64,000 nucleotides of DNA from NCBI GenBank assembly GCA_910589415.1, contig OU342630.1:26073867-26137866 (forward strand). Reading direction: 5' to 3'. The notes under the pieces are model-generated. The model did no database searches. It saw only the letters and a program-made list of their open reading frames with translations, and was not told the DNA's origin. Shown one piece after another: positions 14,540-34,003 of the stretch (positions within the stretch are counted from its first letter, which is position 1; every line of letters starts with the position of its first letter). Source of the DNA: Malachius bipustulatus. Its lineage: Eukaryota > Arthropoda > Insecta > Coleoptera > Melyridae. A program made the position numbers and the translations under genes.

Positions 14540-16125
14540 AATTACAATTACAATTACAATTACAAATTTCTTTATTGTACTTGAATTACAACAGTCATTG
14601 CTCAGTACAACAGCGTCATTACAGAAATAATAAAAACAAACATAAAGACAAACAGTAAAAATTTAAAATACACAGCATGCCAACATAACACCGGGAACAG
14701 TGAGGGTCGAGACGCGCAGAAACACCAAAGCAATCAGTTCTCGATCGAGGCATAGTTCCATCTCTATGATAAGGATGGATCAAGGCTTTGAGTTTTAGGT
14801 GTTTTAATATCAGACTGCAGGTAGGGATGGGGGGTGGAAGGACAGTATATCAGAGGCAGTGTAGGGTTCCAACTCTGTGGATGTTTCCGGAGATACGTAC
14901 TGTACGCTGAGAACCCAACAGTTGCAGGATCTATTTTGAAGTGGTTCAGGTATTTGATTGATGCGTACGTGAATGCCCTTTCTGAAGACGACAGATGGTG
15001 TGTAGGAGGGTTGAACAAATTGAACCTGGTACTGTAGTGATGGGTGAATCGGTAAGGTAAAAGTCTATCCTGATTTTTGTGGATCAGTTTGAGCAGAGAG
15101 AAGACATACAAAGCAGGCACGGTAAGAAGTCCAAGCCACCTGAAATGGCCTCTACATGACTGCTGCATTGACAAGCCTGCCAGGACCCTAATCGCTCTCT
15201 TTTGAAGAAGAAAAACCCTTCGCAGAGATCTCTCAGACCCACCCCAGACGGCCAGCCCATAGTTCACGTGGCTGATGAAATGCCCATAATAAGCAAAGAG
15301 AAGAACCTCAGAGGACAACGTGTGCTGAAGGCGTCTAAGAAGGAAGCAGACACTAGCAAGACGACGGCACAAATGATCTGCGTGAGCCGACCAGTTTAGG
15401 TTCTGGTCGATGTGGAAGCCCAAAAACTTCACCACGCCCTTCGGCTCGATCAAGGCACCATCGGTGGGTATGGAGGGTAAAGGGGAAGACGTGATCGGCT
15501 AGAGTGAAAATCAATCAACTCAGTTTTGCCTAAGTTGAGTTTTAGTTCATTGGCCCTGAGCCATAAACTTGCTCTTTTCAACGGAAGTTGAACGGTATCT
15601 ATCAGACTAGGAAGGTCGTCTGGTTTTATCCTAATAAGAATTGTTGTATCATCAGCATAGTTAACACAGAGTGAATTTGGGGAGGTAATTTTGGGGACCA
15701 GATCGTTAATGAAGATAAGAAAAAGAAGTGGACCGAGAACACTACCCTGTGGCACCCCAGAGGAGATTGGAGCAAAAGGTGATCGCACAGGTCGGCCATC
15801 AGACCCAGTAATCTGAACCGCCTGTTTTCTTTCCTGTAGGTAGCTGGTAAACCAAGAAAGGAGCAATCCACGAACTCTGACATTCTCCAGTTTCCGAAGG
15901 AGGCACTCGTGGCAAACACTGTCGAAGGCCTTGGAGAGATCCAAAAGCCAGCCCACAGTGCGCATCCCCTCCTCCAAACCCTGAGATATGAAGTATGTAA
16001 GCTCCACAAGAGCCGTCTGGGTAGATCTGTTTTTAAGAAAACCATGCTGGGAGCGGGAAAGGATCTTTGTTTCGTCTAGAAAGTCAATAAGACGAGATGA
16101 GAATTTTCTGCGGAAATATGAAAAT
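14536..16125 (-). pseudogene. 5'-truncated non-LTR retrotransposon (CR1/Jockey-like RT)
   Basis: The - strand encodes a reverse transcriptase in two frames. One block (about 16110-15450) has LLDLSKAFDSV (motif A), SSGVPQGSVLGPLLFLIFIN (motif B) and NYADDT (catalytic motif C). The second block (15453-14764) has VVKFLGFHID and the typical C-terminal thumb region, stopping at 14764. A frameshift near 15450 separates them. A 220-bp 3'UTR follows, then a (TTGTAA)n tail at about 14565-14536, the usual simple-repeat end of such elements. The endonuclease and first ORF are missing, as expected from truncated reverse transcription. The clade call is uncertain; the RT identity is firm. Confidence 0.88.
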
Positions 16126-16299
16126 ACAAAAATATACAGGGTATCCTATTTAATAAAATAAGCAAACTTGTCATTACTGAGTCAAGGAACACCACGCATT
16201 TTTTTTACATCAAATAAAAGTAAATTAAATTATAAAATTGACCTGTTTTCGCATTTTTTTAAAACTCAAAACTTTTTTTATTTTGCAACATGTACTTAA

Positions 16300-23059: not shown

Positions 23060-23348
23060 GATCGACACAATGTCTTGATCCCGTGTCGGGGTTGCTGGTC
23101 CCCCATCGGGAGCCTCCCCGGGTGGCGGATAGGGGAATGTCGTCCATATAGATGACACCGGGGAAATTAAATACCCCGGGGCTGACCAAAACTAGCAAAC
23201 CAGATGGTAGAGGACATAGAACCCACACAGACTCGCCCGATGCGATACCATCTTTCTGGCTTAGGCGGCGTGAAGTTGCTTTAAAGAGCTGACGTTTCGT
23301 TGCTGTGCCAGAGATTCCGGTCCTTGGGGTAAGAAACAATTAATATGC
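23060..23348 (+). mobile_element. 5' leader of a non-LTR retrotransposon
   Basis: GC-rich leader with CCTCCCCGGGTGGCGGATAG. The same kind of motif opens the deleted LINE at 52940-52900 (- strand, CCAGGTGGCAGATAGGGGG). It lies directly upstream of the endonuclease frame, so I take it as the 5'UTR; the start is approximate. Confidence 0.5.
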
Positions 23349-25592
23349 ATGGATGGCGTTCCCAGGGTTAAAACGACCCCCCATTCGGATCTCCGGGCGG
23401 GGGCTAATCCAGGGGCACATTCATGCAAGAGAAAGAATAATATCACCACCAGAATGGAAAAATTTATTGTCGACTTTTGTAATATTAGAGGTTTAAACAC
23501 GAATATCAATTCAGTACATCAACATCTTCAGACAAATAAACCTCACATTCTAGCACTGTGCGAAACAAAAGTCCAAGCGTCATCAAGCACAGTTAATTAT
23601 CTCTATCCAGGATATGACTTTCATTCCCGATTTAGACGTAACTTCGGAATTGGCATTTTTATCAGAAGTGACCTCTCCTGCCAACGTGAGGAAGACTTTG
23701 AGCCCAATGACTTTGACGTCATGTGGCTTAGGATAACAGACCGACAAACGACGAGATTTATCTGTTGTTTATACCGACCACCCAGCGATACACAGTATAG
23801 GACACTTTTTTTGTCCCTCACAAAAACTGTTGAATTCATACAGATAAACTACCCCAAAGCTGAGCCATCCATCTTGGGTGATTCTAATGTAGGTACATAA
23901 CATCAACTGGCTTAAATACTCAAACTTCACTGATGAAGAAGGCCGTGAAGCGGAATCGTTTGCGATCAGCTGTGGTTTTACCCAGCTCGTTGATGAACCA
24001 ACACGCATTCCCGATCGCGAGGGAGAATTCGCTAGCCTGTTGGATCTGTTGTTGACCACGAACCCTCAAATGTATACTATCACGGTGAAAGCCCCACTAG
24101 GTTCCTCAGATCATAAACTCGTCTCAACATCTTGTGTCCTACCAATTACTAGTGTTAAAGAAGCAAGTAAACCTCGTGTAGTCTGGCACTACAGATCTGC
24201 TAAATGGGAAGAACTCAGGGAATATTATCGAGATTTTCCATGGAGGAGTGTTTGTTTCGGCTCTAATGATCCATCTGTTTGTGCTAGGGAAGTTGCTCAA
24301 GTCATCCTAACAGGCATGGAAGCCTACATTCCCTTTTCAAAAAAACAGCCCTCAAACAGCAAACCTTGGTTCAACAAAAGATGCAAGGAAGCTGTCGCCT
24401 CCAAACAACTGGCTTTTCGCCAATGGCGAGAGAGCCCCAACGGCATAAACCAGCACAATTTCATCCTTGCTCGAAACAGATGCAAAGAAATAATAGATCA
24501 AACCAAGGAAACTCACAACCAAAGAATTAGGAACAAACTTCTCTCCTGCCCTAACGGTTCGAAATCTTTTTGGTCTGTAACTAAGGCAGTCAGCCAGTAC
24601 TTCACCAGATCAACGATTCCACCACTTACACGGACAGATGGGACTATCGCATCCACGGCTACTGAGAAGGCGAACTTGTTGGCGGGAGTGTTTTCTTCAT
24701 ACTCTTCCGTCGACTTTCATGGAAGAACTCCGCCAATGATCCCTTCCGTGAAGACCAAAATGTCAGACATTGTTTTCCGACAGCGGGTCATAAAGAGCAT
24801 TATGTTAACCTTAGATCCAAACAAAGCTTCTGGGTCCGATGACGTACCTGTTATCGTACTAAAAAAATGCGCCACTGAGCTGTCATCTGTTTTCTGCCGA
24901 CTTTTCAACTTGTCGTATAAAAAGGGAATATTTCCTTCTTGCTGGAAATGTGCACGGATCCAACCTATTCCCAAGAAAGGCAAAAAGACTATACCAAGTA
25001 ACTATCGACCAGTGGCACTGCTTTCAGTAATATCCAAGATTATGGAGAAAGCTATTAACCAACATCTTTTAAAATACTTGGAAGGAGCTAATATAATCAG
25101 CGACCGCCAATACGGATTCCGCAAACAGAGGTCAACTGGTGACCTCCTCACTTACATCACCGAGCTGTGGAATAGCGCAATCGAGCACCATGGGGAGTCT
25201 CGAGGGGTTGCGCTTGATATTTCTAGAGCTTTCGACCGTGTTTGGCATGATGGACTGTTGGCAAAACTGCAGGCCTATGGCATGCCCGAGAAATTCTGCT
25301 TGTGGCTTGGGAGTTATCTCGGAGATCGTTCATTGCAGGTAGCAGTCGATGGAGTTCTTTCTGAGACCTTTTCCATCAATGCCGGTGTGCCTCAGGGATC
25401 CATTTTATCTCCGACTCTCTTTCTAATATTTATAAACGACTTGCTTGAAACAACAAAAAATCCAATATACAGTTTTGCCGACGACAGTACCCTCATATCT
25501 TCTTATACGTTAGATGCGCGAACATCTGCCATCGACGCACAGACTCGCAGGGAGCAAGAAGTTGCCATCCTTAACAATGACTTGCAAGACAT
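23349..25592 (+). pseudogene. Non-LTR retrotransposon: APE endonuclease and reverse transcriptase, split by an LTR element
   Basis: The first frame (23349-23900) is an APE-like endonuclease: DFCNIRGLNTN near the start, a CETKV motif, and GDSNV before the break. A 4-base insertion at about 23896 shifts the frame. The second frame (from about 23900, open 24040-25592) continues with the end of the endonuclease (SSDHKLV), then the RT fingers and palm: SNYRPVALLSVISKIMEK, DISRAFDRVWHDGLL (motif A), NAGVPQGSILSPTLFLIFIN (motif B), YSFADDST (motif C). Codon use and lack of other stops suggest a young copy. Coding stops at 25592 where the LTR retrotransposon enters; the remainder resumes at 33210. 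Confidence 0.9.
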
Positions 25593-26023
25593 TGTAATGA
25601 AGTCGTGTTACCCCGACTCCATCTATTTTATTTTATTGCTATTTTTCCATTATTTTTAATAAATAAAGATTATTCCGACGGCGTAGGTAGGTAGGTAGGA
25701 CCACCCCGTTTAGGTTTTTATTAATCCAGTTAAGTTTTTGCGAATAGTACAGAAATAGGGTTTGGTAGGTAGGTACCTTGAATCAGCAAAGTACTAATAA
25801 TTTTCATGATTTCATTTAATTTCATTAATTTTTTATGCACAGGCTGATTTTTAAAGTAACTGAATCGAGGCAGTTGGCTTCAAATTCAAGCAAGTTATCG
25901 ACCACTATCGCATTATAAAAACGCCGAAATGCACCGGGCCGCAGATAGCAGTTTAAATTAACCTTTTTTACGGAGAAAATGTTCTCGAAAATTTCTATCT
26001 CACCAGGAACCGATAGTGGTCGC

Positions 26024-26031
26024 TATATAAA
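26024..26031 (+). promoter_or_regulatory. TATA box of the 5' LTR
   Basis: TATATAAA in a GC-flanked setting (GGTCGCTATATAAACCGGGG), about 430 bp into the LTR and duplicated at 31773-31780 in the 3' LTR. Position and context suit the U3 promoter. The transcription start is not determined. Confidence 0.6.
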
Positions 26032-26388
26032 CCGGGGCCGTGATTTGAAAAATTAATTCCGAATTCTGATCGCCGGTCGTGAAGACGTATTGTTGAGTTA
26101 ACCGCATCCGATTCGCATCATTGTAAAATACCTACCGGGAAGTCCGAGTGTCTAGTTTAGTTCCTTTTTATTTGATTTGTATTTTACCGGGAAGTACCTA
26201 CGAGCCGCAATTAGGGGTCACTTGTTAGTCCGGGAGTAGTGTAGACGAGTACCTAGTGTGGAGCCTAGACCTGTTGCTGCATAACCAAAGGTAGGTGCTG
26301 TTGCAATTACCATATTACCGCTGCGGTCGATATTTTTCTCCTCTCACTCCTATCGCTCCAGTCCTCATCAGAACCGTCTCCTCCTTCC

Positions 26389-26784
26389 GTTGTTGGTAAC
26401 AAAGGCTTCGCTCCTAGTTCACGGTCCATCGCCTGGCTTAGCAAGGGTGGATCAGTGCGCCGGGAGTGGTGTCTGGTACCAGCGGAACAACGGGTTCCTC
26501 TGATAACCCCTACCATCTCCGTTGTGGGTAACAAAGGCCTCGCTCTTAGTTCACGGTCCATCGCCTGGCATAGCAAGGGTGGATCAGTGCGCCGGGAGTG
26601 GTGTCTGGTACCCGCGGAACAACGGGCTCCTTCAATACCCCTTCATTTCCACGTTGTGAGCAACAAGGATTTCGCTCCTGGTCCACGGTCCATCGCCTGG
26701 CATAGCAAGGGTGGATCAGTGTGCTGGGGGTGGCGTCTGGTGCTCGCGGAGCAGCGTCCCGCCAAAATCGTGCCGATTCCCCTC
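26389..26784 (+). repeat. Three 132-bp tandem repeats inside the 5' LTR
   Basis: Units start at 26389, 26521 and 26653, each beginning GTTGT.GGTAACAAAGG-like and carrying the block CACGGTCCATCGCCTGGC. The period is 44 codons, so open frames on both strands run across units. The same array sits at 32138-32533 in the 3' LTR. It lies downstream of the TATA box, so it would be in the transcript leader. Confidence 0.8.
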
Positions 26785-27356
26785 CGAATGCGTAGTTGAG
26801 ATCACCGTGGCCGCACTACTCACATAACCGCCGAGAACAGCCCGCCTAGTTATTCTTTTTTTGTCTAAACCGATCCAGGCCGTTTTTAACCGCCCGTTCG
26901 TCATTCCGACGTGTGTACCTACCTACTTATTAGTCGCAACCACCCCTCACGTACCGCTGTGCCCCGTGACCGATTTGTTGTTATTTATTTATTCAAACCG
27001 ATTCATTATTATTGCTCATTGTGTACCTACTCCGATAAATTAATAATAAAAATTGTTAAGTTGAATTCTGTGGTGTTAATGTTCATCCGTTCTGCATTAA
27101 TTAATTAAGTATTAATTAAGTAACCGACCCCTGGCACTTTCCGTTTCTCCACAGAGCTACCCCTGGGACAAGGGTACTATAGCAGTACCATTGTAATTAC
27201 GACTCAGGTGAGTGGGAAGATTTGGCGAGAACATCTTCCCGAGGGAGTAAACCCTCTGTAAAAATCTGGCGCCCGAGGAATCCGTCCGATCTCCAGGCGA
27301 TTCCGGACCAGCGAAACGCCACGGACGACTCTCAGGCGGAGTCGTAGTTACAACAG

Positions 27357-27374
27357 TGGCGCCCGAGCAGGGAC
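27357..27374 (+). promoter_or_regulatory. Primer-binding site (tRNA-Lys type)
   Basis: TGGCGCCCGAGCAGGGAC begins four bases after the 5' LTR. It is one base away from the classic lysine-tRNA-type retroviral primer site as I remember it. This marks the start of minus-strand synthesis and confirms the LTR boundary. Confidence 0.8.
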
Positions 27375-27640
27375 CCTATTGAAGTTCCATTCTTCCCGCT
27401 GTAGATAGAAAATAATAGACATTCCCGAACAAAGCACTCACGACCACCGTAATACCCCGCAGCGTTGCCAAGTGTCGACAAAAATCCGTACCAGGACCGA
27501 AATCCGAAACCAACCCGACCGTAACCTAAAAGTGCGATTTTGAGGCACTTCCCGGCGTCTGACGTCAAAAAGGACGAAATTTTTAAAAAGGCCGAAACCG
27601 AAGGGAAAGCATATCTAAGGAACTCGAACCATCGAAAATT

Positions 27641-29323
27641 TTGGGCGGTCATTTGGAGTTTTTGGCCTTGGGTTTGCTAGGTCAGATTTTCTTTCGCTAT
27701 TGCATCCAGAGGGACCCAGCCGACCGTTTGAATCCCGCAGAACTTCCAAGACTCCATTGCAAGAGTCCCAAAATCGGCCAAAACCCCGCAGAAGTCGAAC
27801 CGTTGGTCCGATCCGACTGGAATTTTTTGCTCTCCCCTGGGGACCTCACCACCGACCTTTTCAGTGCCGTCAGTAACCTCCCATCCCCCCGACCGCCGCG
27901 CATGCTCGGTGCTGACTGGTTCAGAATGGGCGCTGACGATCTCGAGCAGGGAGCAGCGGCGTCCGGGTCTACAGGACCGTCCACGGACCACTCCGCCGCC
28001 CCCTTTGGCGGCCTACCTCTGCAAGATGAACCCCGCACGTCCTGGATCTACAAATTAAAGAAGGACGAGTTGGACGCCGAACTGGCCAGACTAGGACTGT
28101 CATGCCCATCAACAGTGGAGGAGAAGCGAAGAATATTGTCGGCCAGGATCAAGTCCCTCCCTGGGTTGACGCTCGACAACAAGACGATGAGCACCACCGT
28201 CACGACGCTCGCCGCGTCGACCGACACGACGCTCGCCGCATCGACCGTTACGACGACAACAGTTGTGCCTTCCGCACCACCCGCATGCACCACTGCGACT
28301 ACATGGACGTCTTGCCCCCCGACCGCTACAACCGTCCAGACACCGACGCCTCCGACCGCACCGCCACCATGGCATCTACCAACGCCAATGGCCCCGAGTT
28401 ATATACCGTACGTCTTTTCCCCCCTCGTCCCGTCTAGACCGACCGAACCGATGGGACCGCCCAATGTATCCGCTTGGAATTTGCGGTACGACGGGCGAAC
28501 CGGTGCAGTCGATTTCCTGGAGCGTCTGGAGGAGCTCCGGGAGATATACGGAGTGAGCCAGGACAGGATGCTCCGCGCCATGCCACTCCTACTGGAAGGA
28601 GAGTGCCTAGCATGGTACCGCAATAATTCTGCCTACATGACGACGTGGCCCGACTTCCAGACGGCGTTCCGAAAATACTTCCTCCACGCTGATTATTTTT
28701 TCGACTTGGAGGCAGAGATCAGCCGGCGAGTGCAGGCGCCAGGCGAGGACGTGCTCCGGTATATCACCGCGATGCAGACGCTGTTCAGGCGTCACGGCGC
28801 GATACCGCCGCACCGACAGTTGGACTGGATGCAGAGAAACCTTCGACCCGAAATGAAGCAAATGTTCTGGAGCCGCAGCTACGATGACGTAAACTCGTTG
28901 ATGGCAGACGCCAAGGCAGCCCAGGATGTGCTGGCCGAACTCCGAACCGTCCGAAGATTTCCGGGACCCGAAGCAAGACCGCTCCGTCCGTCCACCATGC
29001 CTTCCGCACCCCCCAGTCCACTGCCACCGAGAAGAACAGAATGGCAGTCACATCAACAACCAAGCCGAAGTGCGTCGCCACCCCGGAGGGCGATCGAGGC
29101 TGGCGATACCATGACCGAACAGGCGGTGCCAAAAACTGTCAGGTTCTCTCCACCTGCACGAGACAACGCCCGAGCCGTCTGTTGGCGTTGTGGGGAGACG
29201 GGACACCTCCGCAGCCAGTGTTCCGGGCAGCCGAAACTCTTTTGCTCGCGTTGCGAGCGTCCGGGAGTAATGTCGCGAGACTGCGACTGTCAGTGTCCGG
29301 GAAACGAGACGCGGGGCGGGTAA
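27641..29323 (+). CDS. gag: Gag polyprotein of the LTR retrotransposon
   Basis: An open frame of 560 codons from the ATG at 27641; later ATGs (for example 27901) could be the true start. Residues about 130-185 are charged and probably helical. A Pro/Thr-rich linker follows (190-265), then a Ty3/Gypsy-type capsid domain at about 275-440 (WNLRYDG, FLERLEELREIYG, LEGECLAWYRN, W.DF...F.KYF, PGEDVLRYI). A Pro/Ser-rich linker and two nucleocapsid knuckles end the protein (29180-29291): CWRCGETGHLRSQC is a full CX2CX4HX4C, while CSRCERPGVMSRDC has Val in place of His. The frame ends TAA at 29321, just after a -1 slippery site. Capsid domains of this kind form virus-like particles in related elements. 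Confidence 0.9.
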   Translation: MGGHLEFLALGLLGQIFFRYCIQRDPADRLNPAELPRLHCKSPKIGQNPAEVEPLVRSDWNFLLSPGDLTTDLFSAVSNLPSPRPPRMLGADWFRMGADDLEQGAAASGSTGPSTDHSAAPFGGLPLQDEPRTSWIYKLKKDELDAELARLGLSCPSTVEEKRRILSARIKSLPGLTLDNKTMSTTVTTLAASTDTTLAASTVTTTTVVPSAPPACTTATTWTSCPPTATTVQTPTPPTAPPPWHLPTPMAPSYIPYVFSPLVPSRPTEPMGPPNVSAWNLRYDGRTGAVDFLERLEELREIYGVSQDRMLRAMPLLLEGECLAWYRNNSAYMTTWPDFQTAFRKYFLHADYFFDLEAEISRRVQAPGEDVLRYITAMQTLFRRHGAIPPHRQLDWMQRNLRPEMKQMFWSRSYDDVNSLMADAKAAQDVLAELRTVRRFPGPEARPLRPSTMPSAPPSPLPPRRTEWQSHQQPSRSASPPRRAIEAGDTMTEQAVPKTVRFSPPARDNARAVCWRCGETGHLRSQCSGQPKLFCSRCERPGVMSRDCDCQCPGNETRGG

Positions 29324-29347
29324 AGACGCCGGAAAACCGGATACCCG
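29299..29347 (+). promoter_or_regulatory. -1 ribosomal frameshift signal: GGGAAAC plus stem-loop
   Basis: GGGAAAC at 29299-29305 lies exactly in the gag frame as G GGA AAC (X XXY YYZ). Six bases downstream, CGGGGCGGGTA (29312-29322) pairs perfectly with TACCCGCCCCG, an 11-bp stem. The loop of about 22 bases holds an inner CCGG-AAAA-CCGG hairpin. The gag stop codon lies inside the structure. A -1 slip leads straight into the protease frame. Confidence 0.85.
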
Positions 29348-30858
29348 CCCCGAGCAACCGTAACCACCGCCTAGCCGACTTGGACCCGGACACACGACCG
29401 TTCCTCACCGTCACTATCGAGGGGAGGACGTTCGAGGCCCTCGTAGTCACGGGGGCAACCCGTTCGTTTGTGGGCGCCGAAGTGGCCAGCCATTGCGAAA
29501 GCCAGGGCGTCCGGATTCGACGATATAAGGGGACGTCAGCACGGATCGCCGACGGCACGACCGTACCGATCCGGACCACCTTCCTGCTCGACGTTTGCCT
29601 TGGACCCGACAAATTGAAGGCGGCCTGCCTGTCCTTGCCGAATTTACCCGTCGATCTGGTGCTGGGAATGGATTTCCTTGGGGACGGCCGTTTCTCATTA
29701 GACATGCACAGGCGGGAGGTGTGCATCAAGGGCCGAAGGTACCCTCTCCGGGCCCCGGTGGCGGAAACGAGACACACCGACGACCGAAGCGGTCAGTCTC
29801 GCGCCCAGCGGCTGGAGAGCGACAGCGAGCGACCACGCCAGGCCGAAACCGGTTTGGTGGAAGCGCCTGGCGCCATGGAGCCCCCTCGTCAGCGCCGCCG
29901 ACGCCCCAGGAATCGACGAACGCGCCCGGAACGGCGCCAGAGCTACCGCTTAGTGACATGCGAGGCCCCGACAGCCCCGCCGCCCGCAGAAGGCGAAGTT
30001 TGCGCGACCGAAACCGCGGATCGCGAGAAACTTGACGCCTGGTACCGAGAGAAATGTGACACCGTCGAGAAGAACCCGGCCGCATGCCCCGATGTCCGTA
30101 TCCGTGACGACCGCCCGCAGCGGCGGGTCCCGGATAGTAACCGTCCGTTCGAAAAGGGAACCGAAGAGCGGTGTAAGCTGTGCACTCCGGCAAGTCTGCG
30201 TCACCGTGTTCTAGAGGGGAACGACGACGCAACTACCGCAACCCGTAGCCCCAAAGTGATGTCCAAAGCTGAGTCTGACTGCGGGGTTAGTTCTCCACCG
30301 TCAATAATTTACACTTTCACGGATACACAGTCACCGGAACCCGAGCCGCCGATACGCCACGCGACACCGGCGGAGACGCCCGCCGCAGAGGCGTCGGCCG
30401 CAGAGGTACAACGAAGACCGCTGTCACCGAAGAGACCGATCTTCCGTCGGTTGGGACACCGCCCCACCACTCCCGGGCCTGCCAGCAGTCCCGTTTTGTG
30501 CTGGCGGTGTGGCGCGACCGGCCATTACCGGAGCCAGTGCAGGGAGGCACCGCGGCTGTTCTGTTCACGCTGCAACCGGCCGGAGATTTTGTCCCGGGAC
30601 TGCCCATGCCGGGGCGGACCCCCGGGACCCAAGCGCCGGCGTCCTCGAGAAGTGGACCGGCGCGAGGAGCCGCCGCGTCGAGAAGGTCTCGCCACCCAGC
30701 CAAGGACGACGGCAGAGAAGGCCATCCAGTGCGAGCTGCTGGTTGCGCCACTCGCACCCACCCGCTCGCCGGACGCCCAGGCCCGCAGGGGAGAACTGCG
30801 CCGCCGCCGGTTCTACATCCGGCAGCCTCGGCGAACGTCCAGGTCACGGAGGGAGTGA
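29305..30858 (+). CDS. Frameshift ORF: retropepsin-like domain (catalytic Asp replaced) plus second zinc-knuckle module
   Basis: The frame (open from 29041, used from about 29305 after a -1 shift) encodes a retroviral-type aspartic protease: RPFLTVTIEGRTFEALV, then VTGATRSFV where DTGAT is expected, then LVLGMDFL near 29655. The Val codon GTC at 29446-29448 stands at the catalytic Asp position, so cleavage activity is probably lost. After a long Arg/Pro-rich stretch (29800-30480) comes CWRCGATGHYRSQC (30499-30540) and CSRCNRPEILSRDC (30562-30603), a diverged copy of the Gag nucleocapsid pair. A basic tail ends at TGA 30856. No RT, RNase H or integrase motif occurs in any frame before the polypurine tract. 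Confidence 0.82.
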   Translation, partial: RDAGRVKTPENRIPAPSNRNHRLADLDPDTRPFLTVTIEGRTFEALVVTGATRSFVGAEVASHCESQGVRIRRYKGTSARIADGTTVPIRTTFLLDVCLGPDKLKAACLSLPNLPVDLVLGMDFLGDGRFSLDMHRREVCIKGRRYPLRAPVAETRHTDDRSGQSRAQRLESDSERPRQAETGLVEAPGAMEPPRQRRRRPRNRRTRPERRQSYRLVTCEAPTAPPPAEGEVCATETADREKLDAWYREKCDTVEKNPAACPDVRIRDDRPQRRVPDSNRPFEKGTEERCKLCTPASLRHRVLEGNDDATTATRSPKVMSKAESDCGVSSPPSIIYTFTDTQSPEPEPPIRHATPAETPAAEASAAEVQRRPLSPKRPIFRRLGHRPTTPGPASSPVLCWRCGATGHYRSQCREAPRLFCSRCNRPEILSRDCPCRGGPPGPKRRRPREVDRREEPPRREGLATQPRTTAEKAIQCELLVAPLAPTRSPDAQARRGELRRRRFYIRQPRRTSRSRRE

Positions 30859-31330
30859 CCGGGCGGAGGGGCGACGGTGGACCATGACGCTCGATCAGGA
30901 TGGGTGAGTTTATTGTGCCGCGGTCAGTGAATTCTCCCGTTAGGACCATACTAGAGAGTGTTGCATAAAGTGTTGGTTTCATTTTTTGGGATTTGTTATT
31001 TTGGGGATGGACTTGTAAATAGATGGGGATTGACTTGTATGATTTTTATTTAGGGAGTTAATTTAGGGGTTGTAAATATAATGTAAATAGATAGGGAATT
31101 ATTTTTGTATGTAAATAGATAGGGAATTATTTGTGTATATATAGATAGGGAAATTAATTTTTGTTTGTATACCAGGAATTTTTGATACCGGGAGTTTGTT
31201 TATTTCTTTTGTAAGCGAGGCACAGCGTACACGCGTTTCCATTTTATTGTTTGTTGCGAAGGAGTGGCGAACGAGGGCGTTCTTTTTCTGGGAGCCAGGG
31301 AGGACAAAAGCCGGGGCTTTTGTCTACCGA
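30859..31330 (+). other. 3' untranslated internal region of the LTR element
   Basis: No open frame of note. It contains three tandem copies of a GTAAATAGATAGGGAATTA-type unit (31081-31160) and a short AAAAGCC/GGCTTTT hairpin near 31308. This is where the rest of pol would be expected in a complete element. Confidence 0.6.
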
Positions 31331-31341
31331 AGTAGGGGGGG
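31331..31341 (+). promoter_or_regulatory. Polypurine tract
   Basis: AGTAGGGGGGG directly abuts the TG of the 3' LTR. It serves as the plus-strand primer in LTR elements. Confidence 0.8.
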
Positions 31342-33205
31342 TGTAATGAAGTCGTGTTACCCCGACTCCATCTATTTTATTTTATTGCTATTTTTCCATT
31401 ATTTTTAATAAATAAAGATTATTCCGACGGTGTAGGTAGGTAGGTAGGACCACCCCGTTTAGGTTTTTATTAATCCAGTTAAGTTTTTGCGAATAGTACA
31501 GAAATAGGGTTTGGTAGGTAGGTACCTTGAATCAGCAAAGTACTAATAATTTTCATGATTTCATTTAATTTCATTAATTTTTTATGCACAGGCTGATTTT
31601 TAAAGTAACTGAATCGAGGCAGTTGGCTTCAAATTCAAGCAAGTTATCGACCACTATCGCATTATAAAAACGCCGAAATGCACCGGGCCGCAGATAGCAG
31701 TTTAAATTAACCTTTTTTACGGAGAAAATGTTCTCGAAAATTTCTATCTCACCAGGAACCGATAGTGGTCGCTATATAAACCGGGGCCGTGATTTGAAAA
31801 ATTAATTCCGAATTCTGATCGCCGGTCGTGAAGACGTATTGTTGAGTTAACCGCATCCGATTCGCATCATTGTAAAATACCTACCGGGAAGTCCGAGTGT
31901 CTAGTTTAGTTCCTTTTTATTTGATTTGTATTTTACCGGGAAGTACCTACGAGCCGCAATTAGGGGTCACTTGTTAGTCCGGGAGTAGTGTAGACGAGTA
32001 CCTAGTGTGGAGCCTAGACCTGTTGCTGCATAACCAAAGGTAGGTGCTGTTGCAATTACCATATTACCGCTGCGGTCGATATTTTTCTCCTCTCACTCCT
32101 ATCGCTCCAGTCCTCATCAGAACCGTCTCCTCCTTCCGTTGTTGGTAACAAAGGCTTCGCTCCTAGTTCACGGTCCATCGCCTGGCATAGCAAGGGTGGA
32201 TCAGTGCGCCGGGAGTGATGTCTGGTACCAGCGGAACAACGGGTTCCTCTGATAACCCCTACCATCTCCGTTGTGGGTAACAAAGGCCTCGCTCTTAGTT
32301 CACGGTCCATCGCCTGGCATAGCAAGGGTGGATCAGTGCGCCGGGAGTGGTGTCTGGTACCCGCGGAACAACGGGCTCCTTCAATACCCCTTCATTTCCA
32401 CGTTGTGAGCAACAAAGATTTCGCTCCTGGTCCACGGTCCATCGCCTGGCATAGCAAGGGTGGATCAGTGTGCTGGGGGTGGCGTCTGGTGCTCGCGGAG
32501 CAGCGTCCCGCCAAAATCGTGCCGATTCCCCTCCGAATGCGTAGTTGAGATCATCGTGGCCGCACTACTCACATAACCGCCGAGAACAGCCCCGCCTAGT
32601 TATTCTTTTTTTGTCTAAACCGATCCAGGCCGTTTTTAACCGCCCGTTCGTCATTCCGACGTGTGTACCTACCTACTTATTAGTCGCAACCACCCCTCAC
32701 GTACCGCTGTGCCCCGTGACCGATTTGTTGTTATTTATTTATTCAAACCGATTCATTATTATTGCTCATTGTGTACCTACTCCGATAAATTAATAATAAA
32801 AATTGTTAAGTTGAATTCTGTGGTGTTAATGTTCATCCGTTCTGCATTAATTAATTAAGTATCCTTTAAACTGACAATCACTCGCTACAGCTTGGCTCCT
32901 CGGAGGTGCCAATGCTTTCGGAAAGCGATTAAAGCCCGCTTTGCCGAACACATTTCTTTTAGGGTGGTAACCTCAACCGACCCCTGGCACTTTCCGTTTC
33001 TCCACAGAGCTACCCCTGGGACAAGGGTACTATAGCAGTACCATTGTAATTACGACTCAGGTGAGTGGGAAGATTTGGCGAGAACATCTTCCCGAGGGAG
33101 TAAACCCTCTGTAAAAATCTGGCGCCCGAGGAATCCGTCCGATCTCCAGGCGATTCCGGACCAGCGAAACGCCACGGACGACTCTCAGGCGGAGTCGTAG
33201 TTACA
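31342..33205 (+). repeat. 3' LTR (1864 bp)
   Basis: Same start and end as the 5' LTR, with TATA at 31773-31780 and the 132-bp units at 32138, 32270 and 32402. It alone carries 113 bp at 32863-32975 (starting CCTTTAAACTGACAATCACT), which include a CTCCTCGGAGG palindrome. The ACAT duplication follows at 33206-33209. Confidence 0.92.
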
Positions 33206-34003
33206 ACATTCTAACTTGGGGCGATAGAAACCAAGTCCAATTTAATGCAGGAAAAACCCAAGCGGCCATCTTCTCCAAAAAGACCAACGTTTTGGGGCCA
33301 GATATGATGATGGCGGGACACTCTCTTACCCCAGCGTCATCTCTTCGTTTACTTGGAGTGAGCCTTGGAGCGAACATGTCTTGGCATGATCATGTTGCAG
33401 GTCTGGCGAAGAGTGCTTCTCAAAAACTTGGAACACTCTTCCGCACGAAGAAATTTTATACACCACAACAGCTTCTCCTCTTATACAAGGCTCAAATCCG
33501 ACCATCCTTGGAGTACTGCTCACATATTTGGAGCTCAGCTCCTAAACATACGCTGAGACTACTCGACTCTATTCAGAAAAGAGCCATCCGTTTGATTGGG
33601 GACCCAGATTTGACAAAAAATTTAGACACTCTCGAACATCGAAGAAGAGTAGCTGACCGCTGAGTCTGTTTTACAGATATTTTAATGGAAGGTGTTCAAA
33701 AGACGTGGCCCGCTTGATCCCACCAAGAACAAGACCGGGCAGAAATACACGCCGAGCCGCAGACGCTCATCCGTATCAGGTTCAGTTCGTTACACCTCGT
33801 ACCACCCTATTTCAGACTTCTTTTATGTATAGAACCGCATCACTTTGGAATAGTATTCCAAAGGGCGTGTTTCCCGAAGTATACAACCTACAGAGATTCA
33901 AGGCCAACGTGAATCGATATCTCCGCTCATGCACCGCTCCTAGAGCGTCATAGGGATTTCCCTGCAGTGCATGTGCATTTTCAATAAAAAAAAACAAAAA
34001 ACA
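33206..34003 (+). pseudogene. 3' part of the split non-LTR retrotransposon
   Basis: The RT/thumb frame of the LINE resumes with TWGDRNQVQFNAGKTQ, LRLLGVSLG and the conserved YKAQIRPSLEYCSHIWSSAP (33485-33545). It ends at a frameshift near 33655, which puts TGA at 33661. The remaining C-terminal part is in another frame (about 33662-33953: SLWNSIPKGVFPEVYNLQRF). A 3'UTR with AATAAA and an A-rich tail ends near 34003. With the 23896 shift this makes at least two breaks besides the LTR insertion, so the copy is dead. Confidence 0.88.

Follow-up and report, generated by a model that had tools for sequence, protein, structure and literature searches.

The genome of Malachius bipustulatus (Coleoptera; Melyridae) contains long terminal repeat (LTR) elements that encode Gag, a retropepsin-like protease (PR) and a second nucleocapsid module (NC2), and no reverse transcriptase (RT). 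We analysed one of them, complete at 7.6 kb, in a stretch of 64,000 nucleotides (contig OU342630.1 of assembly GCA_910589415.1, forward-strand positions 26,073,867 to 26,137,866), here called the window, from whose first letter positions are counted. The element probably represents a non-autonomous lineage that makes Gag and, presumably, a Gag-protease-NC2 protein, derives by two deletions from an element with the gene order Gag - Pol - kinase - ORF4 (ORF, open reading frame) and would be copied by the enzymes of this partner. Shared breakpoints, a partner with shared LTRs, the reading frames, the pattern of selection and mosaic copies are all directly observed.

In the scenario that we propose, the ancestor was a Gag-Pol-kinase-ORF4 element, from which two internal deletions would have removed RT with RNase H, and integrase core with kinase, so joining what had been ORF4, the gene of a second nucleocapsid protein, to the protease in one frame. 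The window element would make Gag and, by -1 frameshifting, a Gag-protease-NC2 fusion where the partner makes Gag-Pol; the partner would express its ORF4 from a spliced RNA. RT-less and partner RNA would be packaged together in mixed particles; the partner's RT would then copy the former and its integrase insert the product, and the NC2 fusion may provide the particles with extra RNA-binding or chaperone capacity.

The window element encodes Gag, a protease and a second nucleocapsid module

The element and its parts lie in the window as follows:

25589..25592, no strand: left target-site duplication (TSD), ACAT
25593..27352, plus strand: 5' LTR, TGTA...TTACA, with 2.8 copies of a 132-bp repeat at 26386-26750
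27357..27374, plus strand: primer-binding site (PBS), TGGCGCCCGAGCAGGGAC
27902..29323, plus strand: Gag from its first ATG, with N-terminus, capsid and first knuckle pair
29180..29302, plus strand: first nucleocapsid module (NC1), CWRCGETGHLRSQC...FCSRC...SRDCDC
29299..29305, plus strand: -1 frameshift slippery heptamer G GGA AAC, in Gag codon phase
29314..29350, plus strand: hairpin downstream of the heptamer (-23.5 kcal/mol, z -2.0)
29365..29787, plus strand: retropepsin-like PR, triad VTG
29788..29972, plus strand: remnant of the partner's PR-RT spacer
29973..30239, plus strand: what is left of the RNase H-integrase spacer, with a portion of the integrase H2C2 domain
30240..30258, plus strand: 19-nt filler at junction 2
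30259..30858, plus strand: ORF4-derived part, starting exactly at the partner's ORF4 start codon
30499..30621, plus strand: NC2, CWRCGATGHYRSQC...FCSRC...SRDCPC
31330..31341, plus strand: polypurine tract (PPT), AAGTAGGGGGGG
31342..33205, plus strand: 3' LTR
33206..33209, no strand: right TSD, ACAT

A preliminary description, made from the letters of the window, had delimited 27353-31341, which is exactly the internal part, and had read it as Gag, protease and a second pair of knuckles without RT, RNase H or integrase, between an intact PBS and PPT and very similar LTRs. Pfam bears out this layout. The Gag frame matches Retrotrans_gag (1.3e-5) and zf-CCHC (1.1e-4), its knuckles being of CCHC/CCCC type; the N-terminus of Gag, which has no Pfam hit, carries what we take to be a SAP-like motif. 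The second frame, shifted by -1, matches gag-asp_proteas (2.3e-9) and, 0.5 bit below the cut-off, zf-CCHC (5.8e-4), with the second knuckle pair near its end and in frame with the retropepsin domain. RT, RNase H and integrase families are absent from the element at E<=1.

The second frame is probably entered by -1 frameshifting. All 28 gag-bearing loci L001-L028, where L001 is the element's own place in the window, have the heptamer G GGA AAC; six of them belong to a family at 72% identity described below, in which the hairpin stem is also retained and the loop changed, as judged by eye. Two neighbouring copies, L021 and L022, have a 4-nt insertion near the end of Gag and carry a single 1051-codon open frame over Gag, protease and NC2 without frameshifting.

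The sequence features of the termini likewise agree with the preliminary description. The two LTRs differ at 10 of 1763 sites (Kimura two-parameter distance, K2P, 0.0057; MAFFT alignment, running 3 bases past the LTR end) and by a single length difference of about 104 bp; BLAST aligns them at 99.6% over 1521 and 100% over 234. The PBS, presumably of tRNA-Lys type, recurs as an identical 18-mer in L027, L014, L009 and L011. When the flanks are joined across the element they form, by eye, one uninterrupted LINE-like (long interspersed nuclear element) RT frame; because this frame is restored and the ACAT duplication bounds the insertion, the element entered a LINE by clean retrotransposition.

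Some further features touch the element or its surroundings. A PBS-like piece, TGGCGCCCGAGGA, lies within the LTR at 27267-27279, about 75 bp before the LTR end, as if the LTR had overgrown an older PBS. LINE-like endonuclease-RT sequence, identified by eye, occupies 23274-25588 and 33210-33663, with the RT frame continuing across, and a further LINE-like RT fragment is found on the minus strand at 14764-16145. Rfam and tRNA scans across the window returned no matches.

The RT-less form is a multi-copy family

A search with 901 nt of gag, in which the best 40 of 146 candidates were scored so that locus counts are lower bounds, returned at least 34 loci at 95-100% identity and at least 6 at 71-72%. 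We examined 22 of the 34 (the window, L002-L008 and L015-L028). Both deletion breakpoints are common to 18 of these 22 loci, the window and 17 others, with a few substitutions nearby; pol is present in three of the remainder (L008, L017 and L027), and L006 ends within the protease. The members of the pairs L002/L003 and L021/L022 lie close together on their contigs and are nearly alike, and so are not independent. A second search, with 1.3 kb of the partner RT region, placed family RT at 98-100% identity beside 5 of the 34 gag loci among the best 40 of 182 candidates, one match covering only 683 of 1301 nt; the window is not among these best 40 of 182.

LTR K2P ranges from 0.0011 to 0.0077 across the 12 copies measured (window included; 15 were tried). 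Of these 12, the window copy and 10 others have exact 4-bp TSDs, as judged by eye, and L024 has one mismatch. The TSDs are thus the copies' own and the LTR ages differ among these 12 loci. The window element is best read as one copy of a young, multi-copy, non-autonomous Ty3/gypsy lineage. That the lineage is non-autonomous is what the preliminary description had supposed; the outcome that would have spoken for the opposite, a full pol in all other copies, did not occur. A single deletion or chimera peculiar to the window locus would explain the absence of pol there and nothing beyond it. The same breakpoints in other copies refute it, and we give it essentially no weight, the layout being common to 18 of 22 loci with, in those measured, 4-bp TSDs of their own and differing LTR ages.

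The partner carries a kinase gene and ORF4 downstream of pol

An RT-bearing relative in the same genome has LTRs in common with the window element and a full pol; the autonomous relative that the preliminary description had called for is therefore found. A single frame of L027 matches the Pfam families PR, RVT_1, RT_RNaseH, Integrase_H2C2 and rve, and the order protease-RT-RNase H-integrase holds in L027 and L014, as in Ty3/gypsy. From this order, together with LTRs, PBS, PPT and short TSD, we assign the lineage to Ty3/gypsy. Two RT-bearing loci were read as far as the 3' end, and both have the gene order Gag - Pol - protein kinase - ORF4; Pkinase (PF00069) is matched downstream of pol at 1.3e-36 in L027 and 1e-24 in L014. 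ORF4 is a separate small frame carrying NC2, and between it and the same LTR is a 3' untranslated part (L027/L029 and L017/L030). These copies have their own defects: L030 has an open ORF4 but an interrupted LTR, L029 a shifted ORF4 frame and L017 a shifted pol frame.

Mapped on L027/L029, the partner sequence lost in the RT-less form amounts to about 1.45 kb (RT and RNase H) and about 2.5 kb (integrase core and kinase). The first loss corresponds to junction 1, left of the RNase H-integrase spacer remnant, and the second to junction 2, right of it. Junction 1 falls inside a shared CGAC microhomology with no GT...AG, and so fits template switching. On the right side of junction 2 the first bases are those of the ORF4 start codon. 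In L029 and L030, and likewise in L031 of the 72% family, this codon comes after a pyrimidine-rich stretch and a CAG, which we take as a probable splice acceptor for ORF4 in the partner. For the 19-nt filler we found no clear or donor-like source beyond a short, ambiguous match to the PR-RT spacer.

This comparison changes the origin proposed for NC2. The preliminary description had the RNA-binding module duplicated where pol should be; since the partner carries NC2 as ORF4 downstream of pol and kinase, NC2 was not duplicated in place of pol. As we read the alignments, it is the former ORF4, put in frame with the protease once two internal deletions had removed the intervening sequence. The Arg/Pro-rich stretch reported between protease and NC2 is present, but this linker also holds the two pol remnants listed above. 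The duplication itself is real and older than the split of the element families: the knuckle pairs of NC1 and NC2 share 26 of 41 residues, and their pS of 0.89 and pN of 0.25 indicate old paralogy, the former value ruling out NC2 as a recent DNA duplication of NC1.

RT-bearing and RT-less copies have recombined

Two segments separate RT-bearing from RT-less copies: the PR-RT spacer (three RT-bearing copies; support 0.994) and the integrase spacer (two RT-bearing copies; support 1.0), the latter with a mean distance of 0.145 between the groups and 0.055 within. No such split was found in the LTR end, leader, gag, protease, NC2 or LTR start, where the closest RT-bearing/RT-less pairs differ by 0.000-0.028. 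A split confined to the neighbourhood of the breakpoints reads as the footprint of recombination, and RT-less and partner RNAs would then be co-packaged. Repeated template switching between co-packaged RNAs would account for the mosaic pattern; gene conversion between genomic copies would explain it as well. The pattern makes it likely that, as suggested in the preliminary description, the RT-less form uses the enzymes of a partner.

Selection on the retained frames

We calculated Nei-Gojobori dN/dS (the ratio of nonsynonymous to synonymous rates) on 17 RT-less copies, the window and 16 others, omitting the near-duplicate L022; 16 in all were used for the N-terminal part of Gag. Values are 0.38 for this part, 0.27 for capsid, 0.20 for NC1 (bootstrap limits 0.05-0.63), 0.22 for PR, 0.85 for the leftover linker, 0.33 for the N-terminal part of ORF4, 0.14 for NC2 (0.03-0.42) and 0.56 for the C-terminal basic part. 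Both knuckle modules have low ratios, which the preliminary description had named as support, and NC2 and PR look constrained next to a leftover linker that looks near neutral. In the eight copies with the older ORF4 start, NC2 has a dN/dS of 0.12 with an upper limit of 0.45. A count of stop-creating variants gives a single one in NC2 and none in gag, NC1, PR or either flank of ORF4.

Copies of a second family have lost parts of pol independently

The 72% family (L014/L031) has the same four genes and two LTRs without mismatch over 2552 bp. Among its six loci, L014 is complete, L013 has RT and is without integrase core and kinase, and L009-L012 are also without RT. The breakpoints of these derivatives differ from those in the family of the window; the loss therefore happened independently in the 72% family, apparently stepwise. 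Beyond the element, L031:5759-6859 (plus strand) contains a 367-codon frame that by eye resembles a transposase.

Alternative explanations

The RT-less form could be a passive deletion product, spread by its intact LTR, PBS, leader and PPT, in which the Gag, PR and NC2 frames are young leftovers whose low dN/dS arose in the RT-bearing lineage and came to them by recombination. We regard this as a possibility to be taken seriously, though rather unlikely. It is favoured by how strongly RT-bearing and RT-less copies have exchanged gag and NC2, by the young LTRs, by the derivatives of the second family with damaged NC2 and by the frames that are broken, among them the ORF4-derived part in 4 of the 18 RT-less copies (L007, L015, L026 and L028). 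The linker argues the other way, because as a fused frame it belongs to the RT-less lineage only: its 145 variants in 17 copies, together with length changes, produced neither a net frame change nor a coding-frame stop (0 against 4.1 expected, P 0.016), whereas 1 and 6 stops arose in its two other frames. A passive product also sits poorly with a constrained NC2 beside a nearly neutral linker.

Reverse transcription of a partner ORF4 mRNA spliced to the CAG before the start codon could have given birth to the RT-less form, its junctions being splice junctions. The homology at junction 2, which starts exactly at the ORF4 start codon after a pyrimidine-rich stretch and CAG in L029, L030 and L031, is what such an origin would leave; the CGAC microhomology without GT...AG at junction 1 and a filler at junction 2 without donor-like source are not, and we consider this origin very improbable.

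Several observations weigh against the scenario that we nevertheless prefer, a lineage with a Gag-protease-NC2 fusion that is copied by a partner. In the 72% family the first NC2 knuckle is damaged in 5 of 5 derivatives (L009-L013), and in the three with listed frames (L009, L011 and L013) NC2 and the protease do not share a frame, so that such derivatives do not generally need NC2. The ORF4-derived part is broken in the four copies of the window's family named above. Mixing is weak in PR, where the three RT-bearing copies are mutual nearest, and the N-terminal part of ORF4 is intermediate, its two RT-bearing copies grouping (support 0.796) near RT-less copies of the same haplotype. The bootstrap limits of the linker dN/dS are wide (0.55-1.37). 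In the eight copies with the older ORF4 start, the linker (0.64, 0.37-1.09) and the N-terminal part of ORF4 (0.58, 0.34-1.05) are alike, and the limits for NC1 reach 1.05. The selection test is weakened overall because recombination with the partner makes it hard to tell in which lineage selection acted. The window copy may itself be a dead end, its protease triad being VTG where 21 other same-family loci read and 6 of the 72% family have DTG.

The kinase and ORF4 form an accessory pair across families

Three extra families (L037, L038 and L039) were taken from the RT search, with one copy and a short stretch downstream of RT each. Kinase and ORF4 are both present in L037 and L039, with the kinase frame shifted in both; neither was found in the 2.4 kb inspected downstream of RT in L038. 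The pair thus occurs in 4 of the 5 element families sampled in this genome, and it is the presence of ORF4 in four families that places the NC1/NC2 duplication before their split. The protein-kinase ORF between pol and ORF4 was located at:

L029:47-1354, plus strand
L030, reverse strand
L031:455-1648, plus strand
L037
L039

Between L030 and L031, 149 of 362 aligned kinase residues are identical, with dN/dS about 0.37 at near-saturated synonymous divergence, and ORF4 retains 85 of 176 residues. The kinase model of L031 has a core pLDDT (predicted local distance difference test) of about 90 and its best PDB matches are to CaMKII, so that the predicted fold is CaMKII-like. L031 has HRD and DFG motifs; in the window's own family both copies read (L029 and L030) have HRN and DFG, the HRD aspartate being replaced by asparagine, and the frameshifted copies L037 and L039 have HRD/DFE and HRD/DGF, respectively. 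By eye, the kinase ORFs of the four families share a C-terminal motif, SRSLE..W...PR...RLRP.G.R.D...R.E(T/S)GR..RI..PA. The tail of the kinase ORF (L030, reverse strand, 355-1950) has a tandem Pro/Glu-rich unit whose copy number differs between L029 and L030.

No close relative of the kinase was found in 5.8 billion proteins, the best of 7993 scored word-sharing candidates having 33% identity over 51%, and none of 1044 candidates elsewhere matched ORF4 at E<=1e-3. The start of ORF4 is conserved and rich in Ser/Thr-Pro (MS..E.EL.Y.FSTPPSVSYTFTDTPSPEPGPP). Speculatively, and with low confidence, we can imagine an insect Ty3/gypsy clade that stably keeps a CaMK-like kinase and ORF4 as an ancient pair, the kinase phosphorylating the start of ORF4 and so switching the RNA between export, translation and packaging. 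RT-less parasites such as the window element would do without the kinase by having NC2 fused to Gag-protease, so that NC2 enters particles by frameshifting and competes with Gag-Pol.

Relation to known elements

The lineage resembles insect Ty3/gypsy elements (Metaviridae) in its LTR, PBS, Gag knuckles, probable -1 frameshift, 4-bp TSD and, in the partner, the order PR-RT-RNase H-integrase, but downstream of pol the partner has two more genes, one for a protein kinase and a separate one for a second nucleocapsid. Among non-autonomous forms, TR-GAG (terminal-repeat elements with a gag domain) and LARD (large retrotransposon derivatives) are LTR elements of plants, and TR-GAG elements are defined by gag as the only coding domain. 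The window element is like them in LTRs, PBS, PPT, retained gag, lost polymerase and dependence on a partner. It is unlike them in its animal host, in its retained protease frame and in a second nucleocapsid that stems from a separate accessory gene and lies in frame; with a protease domain and NC2 it falls outside the TR-GAG definition.

A protein search with the second frame of the window element gave 13 matches, of which the seven with organism names are from Coccinella, Exocentrus, Gonioctena and Zophobas, which we take to be beetles. By eye, a second knuckle pair follows the protease in two of the 13 proteins, P0003 (Exocentrus) and P0004 (Gonioctena), both gene models that are possibly artificially spliced.

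Among insects, PbTRIM of the ant Pogonomyrmex is a young non-autonomous LTR family with 4-bp TSDs (PMC3532108), but TRIMs (terminal-repeat retrotransposons in miniature) are small, and the window element codes for Gag and protease. Conserved accessory ORFs are known from insect gypsy-type elements of the MDG1 group, where sORF1 and sORF2 (short ORFs) are about 110 and 70 aa, helix-turn-helix-like and fusogen-like, and in Drosophila lie upstream of gag (PMC11952523); the partner described here instead has a kinase and a knuckle protein downstream of pol. LTR retrotransposons of bdelloid rotifers have likewise added an enzyme ORF (ORF3), with DEDDy exonuclease and GDSL esterase there (PMC5408684) and a kinase here. 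Retroviruses have captured host genes, such as Src in RSV (Rous sarcoma virus) and KIT-ligand in a crocodilian ERV (endogenous retrovirus) (PMC4299795). These too are LTR retroelements with a cell-signalling gene and no viral gene lost, but the kinase here is found in several diverged element families, with no close cellular relative among the 7993 candidates scored.

Open-access literature searches over titles and the starts of abstracts returned no LTR retrotransposon with a kinase ORF, an absence there that is not proof. The word 'kinase' does not occur in PMC5408684, PMC6338049, PMC7264820 or PMC12992720; it refers to plant gene families in PMC3852528 and PMC4007544 and belongs to a web address in PMC11963269.

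Conclusions

Descriptions of non-autonomous LTR elements usually centre on what is missing from them. With partner and passenger in one genome and recombination between them visible, co-packaging becomes inferable from sequence. The larger surprise is the partner, in that a kinase and a second nucleocapsid gene are retained by several element families, which is unusual for such elements. A kinase long kept in a clade of retrotransposons, if true, would raise the question of what a mobile element phosphorylates.

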